Source: a virus. From it: 25,931 nt of DNA. Under the pieces are notes generated by a model that ran no database searches, was not told where the DNA came from, and saw nothing but the letters and a program-made list of their open reading frames with translations. Where the stretch lies: IMG/VR virus record IMGVR_UViG_3300047476_000173, positions 1 to 25,931 of that record. One strand, given 5' to 3'. The first letter of the stretch is position 1, and every line of letters starts with the position of its first letter. Both the position numbers and the translations under genes were made by a program. This document shows, piece after piece, positions 10,262-25,931 of the stretch.

Positions 10262-11416
10262 TTAGCTTGCGCCACCCTTGAAGAAACCTACGTGGCTAGG
10301 AATAGTCAAGCCACCGCCGACGCGAACAGTTCCCCTGAAGGTCGTAACGTCGGTGTTGAACGCGTAGTCCGCTGACTGAGCGATCTGGATTCCACCTGCG
10401 ACGCGAACCTTGTATGAAGGCAAGTGTCCAAATAGAACTGACTTTGCGCCAGTAGCAACCGCTGGGACTGCAGGGTTCTCGTAAACCGGGTAGCCGAGCA
10501 ACTGTGCTGGCTGACCATTTACTGCGTTGTCTAGCCAGATGTAGTTACCTGCGCCGTCCTTTAGCTTGCGAGCCGCTGCGATACCTGACTTCGACATCTG
10601 GAATCCAAGACCCGGCAACACGCGAGCGCCGTCGGCAATTCCATATACCAAGTCGATTAGGTTCTCGTAAGTAGCCGCACCTGCAACTCCTGTGCCACCT
10701 GTAACAACAGAACCTGCTGAAGTAACTAGACCAGCAGTTCCAGTTGTTAGTTCGGTGTTCATAGCAATACCGAGTGAAGTTCCCAACTGCTGGGCGATAT
10801 ATGCGGTGATGTCGAACCCTGCGTCTGCTACTAGCTCGTTAGCGACACTAACTAGCGCACCGAACTTCGTAGCTCCTAGAGTAATGCTTGCGAAGGTTGG
10901 GTTGCTTTCGCCAATTGCCGAACCTGCCGCAGTTGCGGTCGAACCAGAAATTGCGGTTGCGGTTGGGATAACCAAGTTCTCGCCAGAAGTTGTGTTGAAA
11001 ACTTCTGAAGTCTGAAGCATTGGACCAACTAGAGTTGCGATCTGGAAAACTTGGTCGTAAAAACTCTGACCTACTGTGTTAGCAGAAGGCACTAGAGCCG
11101 CGCGACGTGAGAACTCAGTTCCGCGTGATTCACCGCGAGCGATCGAGCGCAAAAGGTCTGCGTCGGTAGTCGAAGTTTCGGTGGTAGGGGTGAATGAAGC
11201 CGCCGCCTGTGCCGCTTCAACCGAACGCTGGGCGACTTTCTGTGCGGTAGCGATAGAAGCGTCCGCTGAAGCAATGTCGGCTTCGATTCGGTCGATCTTC
11301 TGTAGATCTTCGGCAGATAGTCCGCGCTTCTCAGTTTCAGCAAGGTCGAGAACTTCTCGCATTTGTGAAACTAGGTTGTTGCGAACGTCTGCTTGAGCTT
11401 TGATGAACTCAGACAT
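10262..11416 (-). CDS. Major capsid protein (HK97 fold)
   Basis: A 384-residue protein with an N-terminal helical scaffold-like region (about 1-75, AQADVRNNLVSQMREVLDLA, then EADIASADASIATAQKVAQR), then a mature part with the P-domain and A-domain patterns (VFQIATLVGPMLQTSEVFNT, SVANELVADAGFDITAYIAQ, TTFRGTVRVGGGLTIPSHVG). The N-terminal region fits the delta domain that the protease removes; cleavage probably falls near residues 90-110 (GESRGTEFSRRAALVP), which is an inference. The start ATG at 11416 has AAAGGA five bases upstream. The gene is bracketed by terminators and has its own leader with repeats, so it can be expressed as a unit of its own. Identity is secure. Confidence 0.92.
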   Translation of the reverse strand: MSEFIKAQADVRNNLVSQMREVLDLAETEKRGLSAEDLQKIDRIEADIASADASIATAQKVAQRSVEAAQAAASFTPTTETSTTDADLLRSIARGESRGTEFSRRAALVPSANTVGQSFYDQVFQIATLVGPMLQTSEVFNTTSGENLVIPTATAISGSTATAAGSAIGESNPTFASITLGATKFGALVSVANELVADAGFDITAYIAQQLGTSLGIAMNTELTTGTAGLVTSAGSVVTGGTGVAGAATYENLIDLVYGIADGARVLPGLGFQMSKSGIAAARKLKDGAGNYIWLDNAVNGQPAQLLGYPVYENPAVPAVATGAKSVLFGHLPSYKVRVAGGIQIAQSADYAFNTDVTTFRGTVRVGGGLTIPSHVGFFKGGAS

Positions 11417-11452
11417 AATGTTCCTTTGTTAAATGGATTAGGGATTCTCTGC

Positions 11453-11493
11453 CGAGCAGACTCAGAACAGAACAGGTCGAGCAGACTCAGAAC
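11453..11493 (-). repeat. Two 16-bp direct repeats in the capsid gene leader
   Basis: The sequence CGAGCAGACTCAGAAC (+ strand) occurs at 11453-11468 and again at 11478-11493, offset by 25 bases. Both copies are in the untranslated leader between the tmRNA-like RNA and the capsid ATG. Such paired repeats can be binding sites for a protein or can arise by slippage. No inverted symmetry was seen within a copy. Confidence 0.85.
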
Positions 11494-11531
11494 CTATAAA
11501 CAATTCTAAATGGTGGGTGTAATGCGGAAAT

Positions 11532-11615
11532 TGGTGGACTAGCAGAGAATCGAACTCTGGTCTTAGTCGTTCCCATTTAGGGTCTTAGCGACTAATCGAA
11601 ACCATTACCTAGCCC
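11532..11615 (-). ncRNA. Compact tmRNA-like RNA without mRNA-like domain
   Basis: Read on the - strand, this 84-base element has an acceptor stem GGGCTAG (11615-11609) pairing with CTAGTCC (11542-11536). Pair three is G-U, the alanine identity element. The discriminator A and an encoded CCA follow (to 11532). The T-arm is CAGAG-TTCGATT-CTCTG. Instead of a D-stem it has AATGGTTTCGAT, the D-loop motif of tmRNA. The anticodon arm is replaced by a 7-bp stem TTAGTCG/CGACTAA, placed like tmRNA helix P2 and closed by 19 bases with a CCC/GGG inner stem. There is no tag reading frame and no usable anticodon loop. Actinobacterial tmRNA ends have the same GGTTTCGA and GGACC-TTCGATT layout, from memory. 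A degenerate tRNA is the main alternative. Confidence 0.72.
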
Positions 11616-11635: not shown

Positions 11636-11680
11636 AAAAGAAAACCCCGCTAGACGAAAGGGTTAGAAAGTCTAGCGGGG
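11636..11680 (-). terminator. Strong intrinsic terminator before the tmRNA-like RNA
   Basis: An 11-bp GC-rich stem (arms 11670-11680 and 11645-11655, CCCCGCTAGAC and its complement) with a 14-base loop, followed on the - strand by TTTTCTTTTC. It lies 16 bases after the stop of the 52-residue gene. It should end most transcripts of the terminase-to-protease operon and separate them from the capsid unit. Confidence 0.88.
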
Positions 11681-11695
11681 GAACTCGCCGAGCGA

Positions 11696-11854
11696 TTAGC
11701 GAGTTTCTTCTACGGCTTTCACACGAGTTTCTTTAGTCGCGGTAGCCGAGTTCTGAATAGCGTCGATAAGATCCTTGACCACGCCGACGCTAGGGTCGCC
11801 AGCGATCTCTTTGATAAGTTTTACCGCTAGTTCGATTTCATCTTTCGTTGCCAT
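11696..11854 (-). CDS. Small helical protein after the protease (52 residues)
   Basis: This ORF begins at ATG 11854, which shares bases with the TAA of the protease gene (TAATG), and ends at 11696. It encodes a 52-residue protein: a charged helix (MATKDEIELAVKLIKEIAGD), then VVKDLIDAIQNSATATKETR and a short charged end. It is soluble and helical with no Cys. Its place between protease and capsid genes is where scaffold or capsid accessory proteins are often encoded, so a small assembly role is possible. No family is recognised. The start/stop overlap and the terminator that follows support it being a real gene. Confidence 0.7.
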   Translation of the reverse strand: MATKDEIELAVKLIKEIAGDPSVGVVKDLIDAIQNSATATKETRVKAVEETR

Positions 11855-13776
11855 TAGATTCCTAACATTAGTAGATCGAGTTTCTTCTTCTTCAGCGCCA
11901 AAATGTCGCCTTCGACTTCTTGAACTTCTGGAGTCTTAGTAAGTTTACCAACGACTTCGGTAACTAGATTTGCTTGCTCGGCTTCTAACTCTTCTCCGAG
12001 TTCGAGCTTTAGCAAAGCGTCTGCGAGAGTGTCTGCGTCGATACCGCCTTCGAGTGAGCGAACCGAAGTTGTCCCGGTCGTCGAACTATATGCGGGAAAG
12101 GCGACTAAAGATACTTCGTGGAGCGAAACTCGGTTTAGGGTTCGGACGTTGCCCGTCTTATCCCAAGAGTCGCCACCCTGCGGAACAGTAAAGCCAAAGC
12201 TCATAGCCGAAACGTCGCCACGCTTGAGAAGAACCGACGCGTCCCGCCCAGCCTGTGTGTCCGGGAGAGAAGCGATAGCCTTTAGCCCGAAAGAATCTTC
12301 GACAAGGCGTAGAGTCCCCGCCCTAGTCGATCCGAGAACGATACCCGTATCGTGATTCCAAAGAAGCTTTATGTCGTTCCTAGACTTTAGGCTCTTCGAG
12401 AAAGCGCCCGGTGCGATACGTTCGATAAAGGGTAGTGGGCTAGAATCCGAGTTGAAAACCGCCGCATAGCCTTCGAAGGTCATTCCGTCGCCAGTTTCCC
12501 GAATCTCGAACTTCACGTCGGCAGTTCGGGTTTCAGCGTCGCGGTTAGATCGTCCTTCGTCCGCTACGCCTTCAAGTTTCGACTTTATAGCGTAGGCGGC
12601 GTTTAGCCATTTAGTCCGGGTAGGGATAACCATAGACTCGGTTAGTTCTGGGAGTTCTTCGGGTTCGACCAGCGGGTCTACCTTCTTGAGATCGGCGATA
12701 GGGACAGTAACAGTTAGCCCGGTCGATTCCCAACTTCTATCTTCTTCGTCGTAGATAAGAACCTGAGCAGAATCGCCTTCAAGAGCTACAACTTCGCCAG
12801 CATAGGCTTCAGTCCCAATGAGCCAAGCAACAAAGTCGCCGACGGCTAGTTCGTCTGGGAGAGCGCGGGTCTGTTCGATCATACGTTCGCTTTCTTCTTG
12901 TTCTCTAATTCTAGCAACCACCGAGTCTGCGTAATCTTTTGCGCGTCGAGCGGCGGTCTTGCTTGGTCCGCTACCCCAGAGCAAGTGAGCGACTACGCCC
13001 GCCGAAGGATAGTTGTCTGAATTAGGGTTTGCGTCGGGACTATCTAGGTCTACTAGGTGGCGGGCGATCCACGCCGCTATTCGAATCCATTTGTCGTCGG
13101 AAACTTGACCTTCTGCCATTAGTCGAGCTTCTCGGATAGTGCGATCCACTATGCCGTCGCCCGCTAGTCCCTGCTCGTAGTATCGGAGTCCCTGTCTAGC
13201 CGCCGCTCTCATATAGGCGGGGGCTTCCTGATTTATCGCACGAACCGAGTTCTCGTCCGGGAGAGCAACAGGGTCAGTCGCTTTTAGACCGAGCGAGCGG
13301 TAAGCCGCTAGAGCGTCATAGTTATTCTCGACGACTTCGATAATGTTATAGGTTTCGAGAAGTTTCTCAGCGGTTGCCCGCTTGTATTCGGTCTGATCGT
13401 CGCTAGAACCGGGATTCATAATTAGACGGGTATAAGAAACCCCTAAATCGTCTAGGGTCTGCCTAGTGTCCGCTTCGTCGTCTACTGACCTGCCCGTAAC
13501 TATGAAAAGAGCCGCGTCGAGCGACTGAAGATAATCATAGGTTTTGCGTATTAGAGAATTACCACGAATAAGAGTGTCGTCAAGATCACTAATAACAATA
13601 GGTTCGCCCGATTCATTTCTCTCTCCCATAAAAGGTTCGTCGTCGCCAAGACTTATAGCGACTGCTTGAGCTATAGCCGAGTCCTTTGTTTCGTGGCAAC
13701 CGAAAACTTCGCCGCCCTGATCGACGACCGCCCAACCTGAGCAGTCTGCCGATTCGTCCGTAATGTAGTAAGGCAT
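11854..13776 (-). CDS. Prohead protease fused to an N-terminal HAD-like domain
   Basis: A 640-residue multidomain protein. Residues 60-165 form a HAD phosphatase-like domain: D64-L-D66-D-T-L (nucleophile and acid/base), FIVTGR with T94, K132, and EVVENNYD near 147-154 in place of the usual acidic motif. Residues 180-295 hold a helical module (AAARQGLRYYEQGLAGDGIV, then DDKWIRIAAWIARHL and WGSGPSKTAARRAK) that I know from actinophage capsid proteases. An SH3-like stretch lies at 310-370. Residues 420-570 are the HK97-type protease, with H475 in LLWNHD and S526 in AMSFGF as likely catalytic residues. The rest is helical and may be scaffold-like. It processes the capsid protein; the role of the HAD domain is unknown. 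Confidence 0.82.
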   Translation of the reverse strand: MPYYITDESADCSGWAVVDQGGEVFGCHETKDSAIAQAVAISLGDDEPFMGERNESGEPIVISDLDDTLIRGNSLIRKTYDYLQSLDAALFIVTGRSVDDEADTRQTLDDLGVSYTRLIMNPGSSDDQTEYKRATAEKLLETYNIIEVVENNYDALAAYRSLGLKATDPVALPDENSVRAINQEAPAYMRAAARQGLRYYEQGLAGDGIVDRTIREARLMAEGQVSDDKWIRIAAWIARHLVDLDSPDANPNSDNYPSAGVVAHLLWGSGPSKTAARRAKDYADSVVARIREQEESERMIEQTRALPDELAVGDFVAWLIGTEAYAGEVVALEGDSAQVLIYDEEDRSWESTGLTVTVPIADLKKVDPLVEPEELPELTESMVIPTRTKWLNAAYAIKSKLEGVADEGRSNRDAETRTADVKFEIRETGDGMTFEGYAAVFNSDSSPLPFIERIAPGAFSKSLKSRNDIKLLWNHDTGIVLGSTRAGTLRLVEDSFGLKAIASLPDTQAGRDASVLLKRGDVSAMSFGFTVPQGGDSWDKTGNVRTLNRVSLHEVSLVAFPAYSSTTGTTSVRSLEGGIDADTLADALLKLELGEELEAEQANLVTEVVGKLTKTPEVQEVEGDILALKKKKLDLLMLGI

Positions 13777-24430: not shown

Positions 24431-25441
24431 CTATTTGAAGTTATCGTCGTCGATCAGGAAACGTAGGGCGAGTTCCGCTTGTTGTGGGACAACCCCGTTT
24501 CCGCACATTTTGAGTTCGTCGGCTCGGCTTAGATTATGCCCCGTTATGTGTCCTTCTGGCAAACCCATTAGCCATTCGGTAAATAGCGAACTGAGTCTGT
24601 GCGATCCGTCTTTGCCGTCGGGCTTGGTCGGTGCGGGGGCTTTGCGCCCGATTATCTTCTCCCAGCGTTCTATCGCCGCCGAGAACTTGCCCCAGTTAGT
24701 TTCGCCTAAAAGGACTTCAGCTTCGATTCGGCTCTTCGGGTTGCCTTCTGCTACTTCTTTAGCGGTAGCCCCTTTAGCCATAGATACCCGCGTCGTAGGC
24801 ATAAGCGTAAGTTGTTCTTGTATCGAGTCGGGAACTTTTAGCCCGTTGTTGAAAGCAAGCTCGGCGACCTGATCCTGAGTCTTTACAGTCGTCCCACGCT
24901 CTAACGCCGCCGATTCGCTGACCGCACCTGCGGTTGCGTTCGTAGTAGTAGGCGTTCTGAATAAAACTCGATCGTCGCCGTTCACTAGACCTTTTACGAT
25001 AGTCCCAACCTGCGGAGAAGAACGTCGAAGCCCGGACTCGTAACCTTCAGCAATTGCGTCCCTAGCCTTGAGCGTCGGAAACAACTCCATTCGAACCGCA
25101 ACACCAAGAGAGATACCCGGTATACCCCGATACTCCCCCGAATACCCCTTATCCCGTCGATCGAGATAGTCGTCTATTTCTTCGTCGTGATTACGAACGT
25201 GGGCGACTGTAGGAGTCGGTAGGACTACTTGCCCCCCCCCTAGCGGGGTAGGCGATAACAAAGACTCGTTCTCGTTGGTGAGCCGCCCCTGCGTCTGAAG
25301 CTCGAACAGTTGTCCACCGACAGTCATACCCGATTTCGGAAAGACTGCCTGAAACAACTCCGAGTGCTCGGAGAACAGGCTCTCCTTCTTGGTAATCCAA
25401 ACCCGAAGATTCGAGTTCCAACTCGCTAGCGGCTTTAGCAC
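24431..25441 (-). CDS. Cytosine-C5 methyltransferase, C-terminal module (separate or frameshifted frame)
   Basis: This 336-residue frame ends with RADELKMCGNGVVPQQAELA, which is motif X of C5 methyltransferases, preceded by SSLFTEWLMGLPEGHITGH and a helix ERWEKIIGRKAPAPTKP, all typical of the C-terminal part. Its first 70 residues (SLFSEHSELFQAVFPKSGMT, then GGQLFELQTQ) look like the SGMT-type module that precedes LPTP segments in phage methyltransferases. Those residues overlap motifs VI-VIII of the N-terminal ORF in another frame. A GTG start at 25441 has AAGGGG eight bases upstream. Either a second subunit is translated from there, or the two frames are joined through the G9 run at 25232-25240. 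Confidence 0.75.
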   Translation of the reverse strand: MLKPLASWNSNLRVWITKKESLFSEHSELFQAVFPKSGMTVGGQLFELQTQGRLTNENESLLSPTPLGGGQVVLPTPTVAHVRNHDEEIDDYLDRRDKGYSGEYRGIPGISLGVAVRMELFPTLKARDAIAEGYESGLRRSSPQVGTIVKGLVNGDDRVLFRTPTTTNATAGAVSESAALERGTTVKTQDQVAELAFNNGLKVPDSIQEQLTLMPTTRVSMAKGATAKEVAEGNPKSRIEAEVLLGETNWGKFSAAIERWEKIIGRKAPAPTKPDGKDGSHRLSSLFTEWLMGLPEGHITGHNLSRADELKMCGNGVVPQQAELALRFLIDDDNFK

Positions 25442-25793
25442 TTAGTAATCCCCTTACATTTTCGATAACAACAATTTTCGGTTTTAGTTCAGTAATTGCT
25501 CTCAAGAACTCGAACCATAAGTTAGATCGAGTTCCTTCGGTTAGACCTTTTCGAAGCCCTGCGACCGATACGTCTTGGCAGGGAAACCCGCCCGTAAGAA
25601 TCTCGACGGGTTCTATAGCGGTAAAGTCCACTTTACTAACGTCGTGGTAGTTCGGGACTCCGGGATAGTTTGCGGCTAGGACTGCGGACGGGGCTTTCTC
25701 CCATTCACAATGCCAAGCGACTTCTGCGTCGAAGATTTTGGCTACGGCTATGTCGAGTCCGCCGTAACCGCTAAATAGGCTACCTATCTTCAT
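25191..25793 (-). CDS. Cytosine-C5 DNA methyltransferase, catalytic module
   Basis: The 200 residues from ATG 25793 contain motif I (FSGYGGLD, AdoMet binding), motif IV with catalytic C72 (GGFPCQDVS), motif VI (E111-N-V) and motif VIII (AAHQRERVFVIAYP, about 171-183). The frame then runs through a G9 tract and stops at 25191 after a short unconserved tail (ASSPTDSYSRPRS). Motifs IX and X are only in the other frame. ATG 25793 is preferred over an upstream TTG because the protein starts exactly at the conserved MKIGSLFSG. It methylates cytosine if completed by the second frame; the recognition sequence cannot be inferred. Confidence 0.88.
   Translation of the reverse strand: MKIGSLFSGYGGLDIAVAKIFDAEVAWHCEWEKAPSAVLAANYPGVPNYHDVSKVDFTAIEPVEILTGGFPCQDVSVAGLRKGLTEGTRSNLWFEFLRAITELKPKIVVIENVRGLLSAKAASELELESSGLDYQEGEPVLRALGVVSGSLSEIGYDCRWTTVRASDAGAAHQRERVFVIAYPARGGASSPTDSYSRPRS
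25232..25240 (-). repeat. Run of nine G at the methyltransferase frame change
   Basis: On the - strand the run follows CGCTA and lies 40 codons after motif VI begins to be dual-coded. Eight G instead of nine would fuse both methyltransferase frames into one 453-codon gene (24431-25793). Such runs slip during replication and are also error-prone in sequencing and assembly. Confidence 0.9.
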
Positions 25794-25931
25794 TAGCAAG
25801 CCCGTCGATAATCGCTTGACGAATCTCTGCGCCAAGCTCGTAGGGAATCATAGAGCGGGTTTTCGAACCCTTGAGACCTTGAGTTCCAGTTCTCGATCCA
25901 CGCGGGGCGGCTACGTGGCAGTCCGAACCGG
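25780..25931 (-). CDS. C-terminal fragment of an unidentified phage gene
   Basis: The frame is open from the right edge and ends at TAG 25782-25780, giving 49 residues. It has GSDCHVAAPRGSRTGTQGLK followed by GSKTRSMIPYELGAEIRQAI. The element TGTQGLKGS-x2-R-x-IP is one I associate with the C-termini of actinophage proteins annotated as DNA methylases or DNA-modification factors, but I am not sure of the family. It overlaps the C5 methyltransferase start by 14 bases, so the two are translated together. A link to DNA modification is therefore plausible. Confidence 0.5.
   Translation of the reverse strand, partial: GSDCHVAAPRGSRTGTQGLKGSKTRSMIPYELGAEIRQAIIDGLANEDR

Follow-up and report, generated by a model that had tools for sequence, protein, structure and literature searches.

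A predicted mini-tmRNA confined to the tRNA-like domain in a phage head operon, and its relatives in other phages

The stretch of DNA analysed here (the window, 25.9 kb) is a whole IMG/VR viral record which carries an 84-nt element, including an encoded CCA, at 11615–11532 on the minus strand, co-oriented with all of the surrounding genes. A first-pass annotation made from the sequence had left the strand unstated, and the features it described (acceptor, T-arm, CCA, a D-loop without D-stem, G3-U70, A73 and a hairpin at the P2 position) are all present when the element is read on this strand. The features at the locus are listed below.

10262–11416, minus strand: major head protein gene, downstream of the mini-tmRNA (PHROG 10).
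11532–11615, minus strand: predicted mini-tmRNA, tRNA-like domain (TLD) only (RF00023 35.0 bits, E = 3.1e-13; model R2 68.5 bits, E = 8.5e-17, with the window sequence in the R2 training set; 95 distinct family sequences).
11532–11542, minus strand: acceptor 3' strand CUAGUCC (U70 at 11538), A73 at 11535 and CCA at 11532–11534; G3-U70 and A73 are found in 57/58 dereplicated relatives and were outside the search pattern.
11543–11559, minus strand: T-arm CAGAG-UUCGAUU-CUCUG (5/5 pairs, of which 3/5 covary).
11560–11562, minus strand: tmRNA-type GAC linker 5' of the T-arm (GAC in 58/58 dereplicated relatives, where the parser itself demanded GA).
11563–11569, minus strand: P2 3' strand CGACUAA (pairing and covariation in relatives).
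11570–11588, minus strand: asymmetric internal loop (AARR/AA type) and apical hairpin ACCC-UAAAU-GGGA, in place of the mRNA-like domain (MLD); 3/3 pairs in the apical stem, of which 2/3 covary, and no conserved tag frame.
11589–11595, minus strand: P2 5' strand UUAGUCG (7/7 pairs with both-side changes in 50 sequences).
11596–11608, minus strand: D-loop region GUAAUGGUUUCGA, tmRNA-type without D-stem (GGUUUCGA in 40/58 dereplicated relatives).
11609–11615, minus strand: acceptor 5' strand GGGCUAG, with G3 at 11613 (7/7 pairs with 11536–11542; relatives covary at pairs 4–7).
11645–11680, minus strand: terminator-like hairpin just upstream of the mini-tmRNA, with an 11-bp stem and a 14-nt loop, followed by TTTTCTTTTC (read from the sequence).
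11696–11854, minus strand: small ORF of ~53 aa, the last of the upstream head operon (read from the sequence; kept upstream of the major capsid protein gene in relatives).
11854–13776, minus strand: upstream gene for a prohead protease with a fused phosphatase/kinase-like N-terminus (PHROG 80/415, Pfam Peptidase_S78).

The RNA reads GGGCUAG-GUAAUGGUUUCGA-UUAGUCG-CUAAGACCCUAAAUGGGAA-CGACUAA-GAC-CAGAG-UUCGAUU-CUCUG-CUAGUCC-A-CCA, with 7/7 pairs in the acceptor (including G3-U70), 5/5 in the T-stem and 7/7 in P2. The order of the parts is that of a standard tmRNA TLD, with the GGUUUCGA D-loop (a motif shared with the full tmRNA from phage PegLeg), the GAC linker and the T-arm, and in place of the anticodon arm and the entire MLD there is a 7-bp P2 with a small hairpin as its cap; neither a D-stem nor an anticodon loop is present in the 84 nt. 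The folding energy of the isolated element indicates mild extra stability (z = -1.74 against shuffles), which alone is no proof of an element, and the proof is supplied by homology instead.

The terminator-like hairpin upstream, whose 14-nt loop exceeds the range of the terminator scan, is also found in relatives without the mini-tmRNA such as L009, and no sigma-70-like promoter was found at the mini-tmRNA. The major capsid protein of L009 is 96% identical to that of the window, and as L009 has no mini-tmRNA the element is dispensable. Amongst the head-gene relatives of the window more generally it is present in some and absent in others, and the mini-tmRNA is, as judged from these comparisons, an accessory element which has been gained and lost.

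Other features were seen in the same region. The N-terminal part of the 11854–13776 (minus strand) fusion is HAD/polynucleotide-kinase-like, and the protease gene of Pontimonas phage phiPsal1 is shorter. The head-gene leader (11423–11500, minus strand) contains two tandem, similar hairpin-like repeats (GGTTCTGAGTCTGCTCG... and GTTCTGAGTCTGCTCGGCAGA), and the repeat also precedes the head gene of most relatives and of phiPsal1, with stems that change together from phage to phage (CTGAG/CTCGG, CTGTG/CACGG, CAGCG/CGCGG and GAGTG/CACCG); these repeats are possibly a new leader RNA. Another structured leader, CCACTTCGTGAGCA..AGTGCAAAGTGG, is located ~100 nt upstream of the mini-tmRNA or its site in L031, L034 and L065, preceding the mini-tmRNA in some relatives and standing alone in L065. 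Further elements with a T-arm and acceptor, ending in AGTCCA or AGCCCA, occur upstream of the head gene in L062 (1275–1975, several in tandem) and L063 (upstream of 4678), and model R1 is blind to these diverged tRNA-like RNAs. Elsewhere in the window, two overlapping minus-strand ORFs in different frames (24431–25441 and 25191–25835) each correspond to part of a DNA methyltransferase and are, on this reading, a cytosine methylase gene that has been split or frameshifted.

A search of 96 bases with the Rfam tmRNA model RF00023 matched exactly 11532–11615 on the minus strand, with the alignment running end-to-end from model position 1 to 374 over 11615–11532 and 294 model positions skipped; it should be noted that the 35.0 bits obtained are below the Rfam gathering score of 47 bits. 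Rfam scans of the whole window and of 301 bases missed the mini-tmRNA, probably because of speed filters. Relatives pass the 47-bit cut-off with 71.3, 64.6, 61.8, 61.0, 60.9, 58.0, 57.4, 57.4, 57.1 and 51.2 bits, and the highest score among other viral contigs is 77.0 bits. The end-to-end match and the many relatives above the cut-off point to a tmRNA homologue from which the MLD has gone, and by these scores the element is almost certainly a TLD-only tmRNA, which agrees with the tmRNA-type TLD proposed in the first-pass annotation.

That annotation had also seen no ordinary tRNA here, and we came to the same view as ARAGORN returned no tRNA or tmRNA genes from the window, RF00005 reached 16.4 bits (less than 29) with a misplaced match, and the RNA, with neither a D-stem nor an anticodon arm with a 7-nt loop, is not a tRNA-Ala. 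A permuted or split tmRNA was rejected as well, with RF04321 giving just 20.3 bits for the 3' half only, and the gene order is not of the permuted, mitochondrial type since the 5' acceptor strand lies ahead of the T-arm. The element shares G3-U70, A73 and the tmRNA D-loop with complete tmRNAs, but has a 19-nt capped P2 instead of an MLD with tag and pseudoknots. It has the standard-order TLD and absence of a tag frame seen in the TLD-only tmRNA of phage DS6A, and like it is phage-encoded, as indicated by the head-operon context, the IMG/VR record and relatives in phage isolates.

One possible reading of the P2 loop in the window is UAGUC-GCU AAG ACC CUA AAU GGG AAC GAC UAA, which resembles a resume codon followed by an 8-codon tag. 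This reading was ruled out by a 1-nt deletion in L004, by CAA in place of UAA in L013, and by the finding of a stop at the position used in the window in only 33/95 members. No conserved tag frame was found in the family, as GCN...stop occurs in 30/95 members compared with 31 expected from shuffles, and the earlier claim that the mRNA-like domain is missing is borne out by this, by the capped P2 and by the skipped model positions.

We recovered at least 95 distinct relatives (77–82 nt without CCA) from viral contigs and cultured phages using a parser which required pairing; a first DNA pattern (D-loop plus T-arm) had matched 49 viral stretches and a second pattern at least 120. G3-U70 and A73, noted earlier as alanine identity elements, are retained in 94/95 members as well as in the window, and neither was part of any search pattern. 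The first-pass annotation had proposed looking for covarying P2 stems in related phages, and these were found: 393/406 P2 pairs are standard in the 58 dereplicated members, compared with a mean of 206 and a maximum of 227 in shuffles. In an alignment of 50 sequences both-side changes were seen in 16/22 pairs, and the covariation score was 0.820 compared with 0.180 when shuffled and at most 0.144 when slid, though this alignment was built on the structure itself and its score is open to that bias. The second pattern is blind to pairing in P2, the acceptor and the T-stem and so offers a less biased view, and among the matches listed for it 73/86 distinct sequences have at least 6/7 pairs in P2, 5/5 in the T-stem and 7/7 in the acceptor. 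In L013, a close relative of the window, the acceptor and T-arm are kept and P2 is different yet fully paired. The D-loop has AG rather than GG in all six distinct rows with TGC in the T-loop and in no other row, which is the pattern expected if the contact between D-loop and T-loop at the elbow is kept. CCA is encoded in only 19/95 members, and most would need CCA addition.

The R2 cut-off for membership was set at ~40 bits because the tRNA-Ala of Magritte reaches 32 bits with this model. A pattern which captures only some of the family was scanned against 84,980 bacterial species genomes and produced 14 matches, of which two are real and come from one Phycisphaeraceae MAG; the other 12, with no more than 2/5 pairs in P2, show what is obtained by chance. 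Judged on these alignments, the family is large, structurally conserved and found in many unrelated phages, and its breadth and shared architecture are the new part of this work.

In 21/95 loci the mini-tmRNA has a tRNA gene no more than 300 nt away, on the same strand in all 21; in a 205-kb contig, for instance, a mini-tmRNA sits inside an array of 32 tRNAs, and another lies between tRNA-Thr and tRNA-Asn. The cultured carriers are the Streptomyces phages LuckySocke, GiJojo, pSt2308, BRock, Tomas, Riptide and Alone3, along with Stenotrophomonas phage Jojan60 and phiPsal1. The mini-tmRNAs of these nine phages score 41.5–65 bits with R2, and six cultured phages with the mini form exceed the RF00023 cut-off (among them phiPsal1 with 54.6 and BRock with 64.5 bits). 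Tomas (NC_070781, 88030–88107 and 97147–97421) and Riptide (PV654398, 83298–83374 and 94862–95130) each encode both a mini form and a full-length tmRNA. No near-match to the window was found in INPHARED, and its nearest cultured relative by terminase is phiPsal1 (48.7%), in which the mini-tmRNA occupies the same site upstream of the major capsid gene. This relationship and the shared site point to a Microbacteriaceae host, which we infer for the window; phiPsal1 itself was sequenced from a host culture and later lost (PMC6106888).

We note that hypothetical proteins have been annotated over the mini-tmRNA in GiJojo (PP725410, 17023–17265, gp44) and Jojan60 (ON045087, 37776–37916), and that these are probably mis-annotated ORFs. 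As ARAGORN also returned no mini forms in the loci scanned, there is a blind spot in annotation which GiJojo gp44 illustrates. Two mini-tmRNAs occur in one 136-kb viral contig (G001, loci L178 and L202), at 42520 and 109671. Vibrio phage D239 (OZ196063, ~62488–62556) and phage Eden (NC_048017, 40182–40270) have shorter and longer variants which keep G3-U70 and A73 but differ in the middle part, and further types of tag-less tmRNA-like RNA are a possible explanation of these. Intergenic acceptor plus T-arm fragments in the Streptomyces phages Zemlya (L129, 2501–2541) and phiScoe45 (L132, 2001–2039) are perhaps copies of tRNA 3' ends (attP-like).

Trans-translation is near-universal in bacteria and is a drug target. 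Whether phages fight it had been unclear, and at least 95 covarying members make the question general and now testable in Streptomyces phages. The best explanation we have for the mini-tmRNA, and probably the correct one, is that it is a phage-made, dominant-negative CDS-less tmRNA which blocks host trans-translation. The transcript would be processed at its 5' and 3' ends, charged by the host AlaRS and bound by host SmpB and EF-Tu; it is host SmpB that would be needed, as a search of 13 viral records returned no SmpB gene (bacterial controls were positive). The RNA would then either sequester SmpB or enter stalled ribosomes without a resume codon, inhibiting host trans-translation in a dominant-negative manner during infection, so that nascent chains or mRNAs of the phage escape tagging and decay. 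Counted in favour of this are the tmRNA homology, the near-invariant G3-U70 and A73, the linked D-loop and T-loop changes, the conserved fold, the absence of a tag, the co-orientation with tRNA genes, the lack of a phage SmpB and the DS6A precedent; counted against it are the encoding of CCA in so few members, the failure to find a promoter, the absence of the element from L009 and the RF00023 score of the window below the cut-off, and the presence of both mini and full-length tmRNAs in Tomas and Riptide sits uneasily with a general blocker. That G3-U70, A73 and the elbow are so strongly retained is an argument for the importance of charging or ribosome entry, and not of SmpB sequestration alone, and the strictness with which the P2 cap is maintained in these sequences suggests a specific job for it.

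The same retention of alanine identity and elbow, where a pure SmpB sponge would need less, could also be explained by a minimal rescue RNA, in which Ala-charged mini-tmRNA and host SmpB enter non-stop ribosomes and free the nascent chain untagged, so that ribosomes keep cycling and phage proteins are spared, as proposed for tag-less mitochondrial tmRNAs. We consider this unlikely: we know of no way in which an RNA carrying no stop codon would release the chain, and a TLD-only RNA inhibited tmRNA when tested, going by the passages concerned in PMC4131195 and PMC11915505. The conservation of tag-less mitochondrial tmRNAs together with SmpB speaks for such a rescue role; the lesser need of a pure sponge for alanine identity is indicated by the inhibitor cited in PMC4131195, which worked whether chargeable or not. 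A role as a decoy for a host defence factor which binds or cleaves tmRNA or tRNA, such as the SmpB-like OB-fold RNases proposed in CoCoNuT systems, would fit the sporadic presence of the element among near-identical phages as an arms-race accessory, and SmpB-like domains have been predicted in type II/III-A CoCoNuTs (PMC11090510). However, no defence partner has been identified, the family spans phages of both actinobacterial and proteobacterial hosts, and tmRNA binding by CoCoNuTs is itself a prediction, and we regard such a decoy as less likely still.

In the window group and in phiPsal1 the element is always found immediately ahead of the major head gene, a position which would be accounted for by a cis-acting processing or punctuation signal (an RNase P/RNase Z substrate) between the protease and head-protein transcripts, rather than a trans-acting RNA. 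This is improbable given that other members lie in tRNA arrays and further contexts, that the site is empty in many head-gene relatives, and that such a signal has no need for G3-U70, A73 or a capped P2. Phage integration often takes place at tmRNA genes, and genuine attP-like T-arm pieces occur beside integrases in other (Gordonia) phages, so a relic was also considered, either as a decaying tmRNA or as an attP copy of the 3' end of host tmRNA. An attP copy would carry the 3' half only, whereas compensatory changes maintain both acceptor halves, P2 and the apical stem, which rules it out for the window element; no integrase was seen in the window and the site is inside the head operon. Unless the covariation is an artefact the relic is refuted, and we give it hardly any credence. 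Returning to an inhibitor of host trans-translation, a wider claim can be put forward tentatively, at somewhat less than even odds in our judgement: that these RNAs are a large, previously unrecognised class attacking trans-translation in phages of actinobacteria, proteobacteria and probably others, in which a shared effector (P2, the AARR internal loop and the apical hairpin) replaces the MLD and which may therefore act in the ribosome and not merely as a sponge for SmpB.

An ARAGORN survey found tmRNA in 402 of 18,146 phage genomes (PMC9004378), and the 2025 tmRNA database holds 97,179 sequences, including 79 phage tmRNAs and nine standard-form CDS-less sequences (PMC11915505). Compared with the standard tmRNA (RF00023), the mini form has the same acceptor with G3-U70 and A73, GGUUCGA-type D-loop, P2, GAC linker, T-arm and gene order, but is without a tag frame or pseudoknots and is 84 nt rather than ~350 nt long. 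The mitochondrial tmRNAs of jakobids and relatives (RF02544) also have no tag frame, but their genes are usually permuted where the mini-tmRNA has the standard order, and the CDS-less plastid tmRNAs of ~65 bp in Mallomonadaceae are likewise short but are organellar and represented by two sequences. The tRNA-Ala shares G3-U70, A73, acceptor and T-arm with the mini-tmRNA, which differs in having no D-stem or anticodon arm. The closest known case is Mycobacterium phage DS6A (tmRNA Website tmID 11587; Phage__Mycobacterium.9), which is phage-encoded with little beyond the TLD and no tag CDS, and was listed as 'TLD only' by Hudson, Lau and Williams (PMC4131195); the suggestion in the first-pass annotation that no tag-less phage tmRNA was known is not supported in view of this precedent (see also PMC11915505). 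In the passage of PMC4131195 that reports Mao et al. 2009, a DS6A-like molecule is described as a strong inhibitor of tmRNA whether or not it can be charged, with titration of SmpB as a possible cause; according to Nawrocki, Petrov and Williams (PMC11915505), endogenous tmRNA in E. coli is inhibited by the form found in DS6A. DS6A is a single reported phage case which we liken to ours by description only, whereas the family of the window has 95 distinct members sharing P2, the AARR internal loop and the apical hairpin. The kind of RNA is thus not unprecedented and its novelty is limited by DS6A, but the gain in breadth is large.
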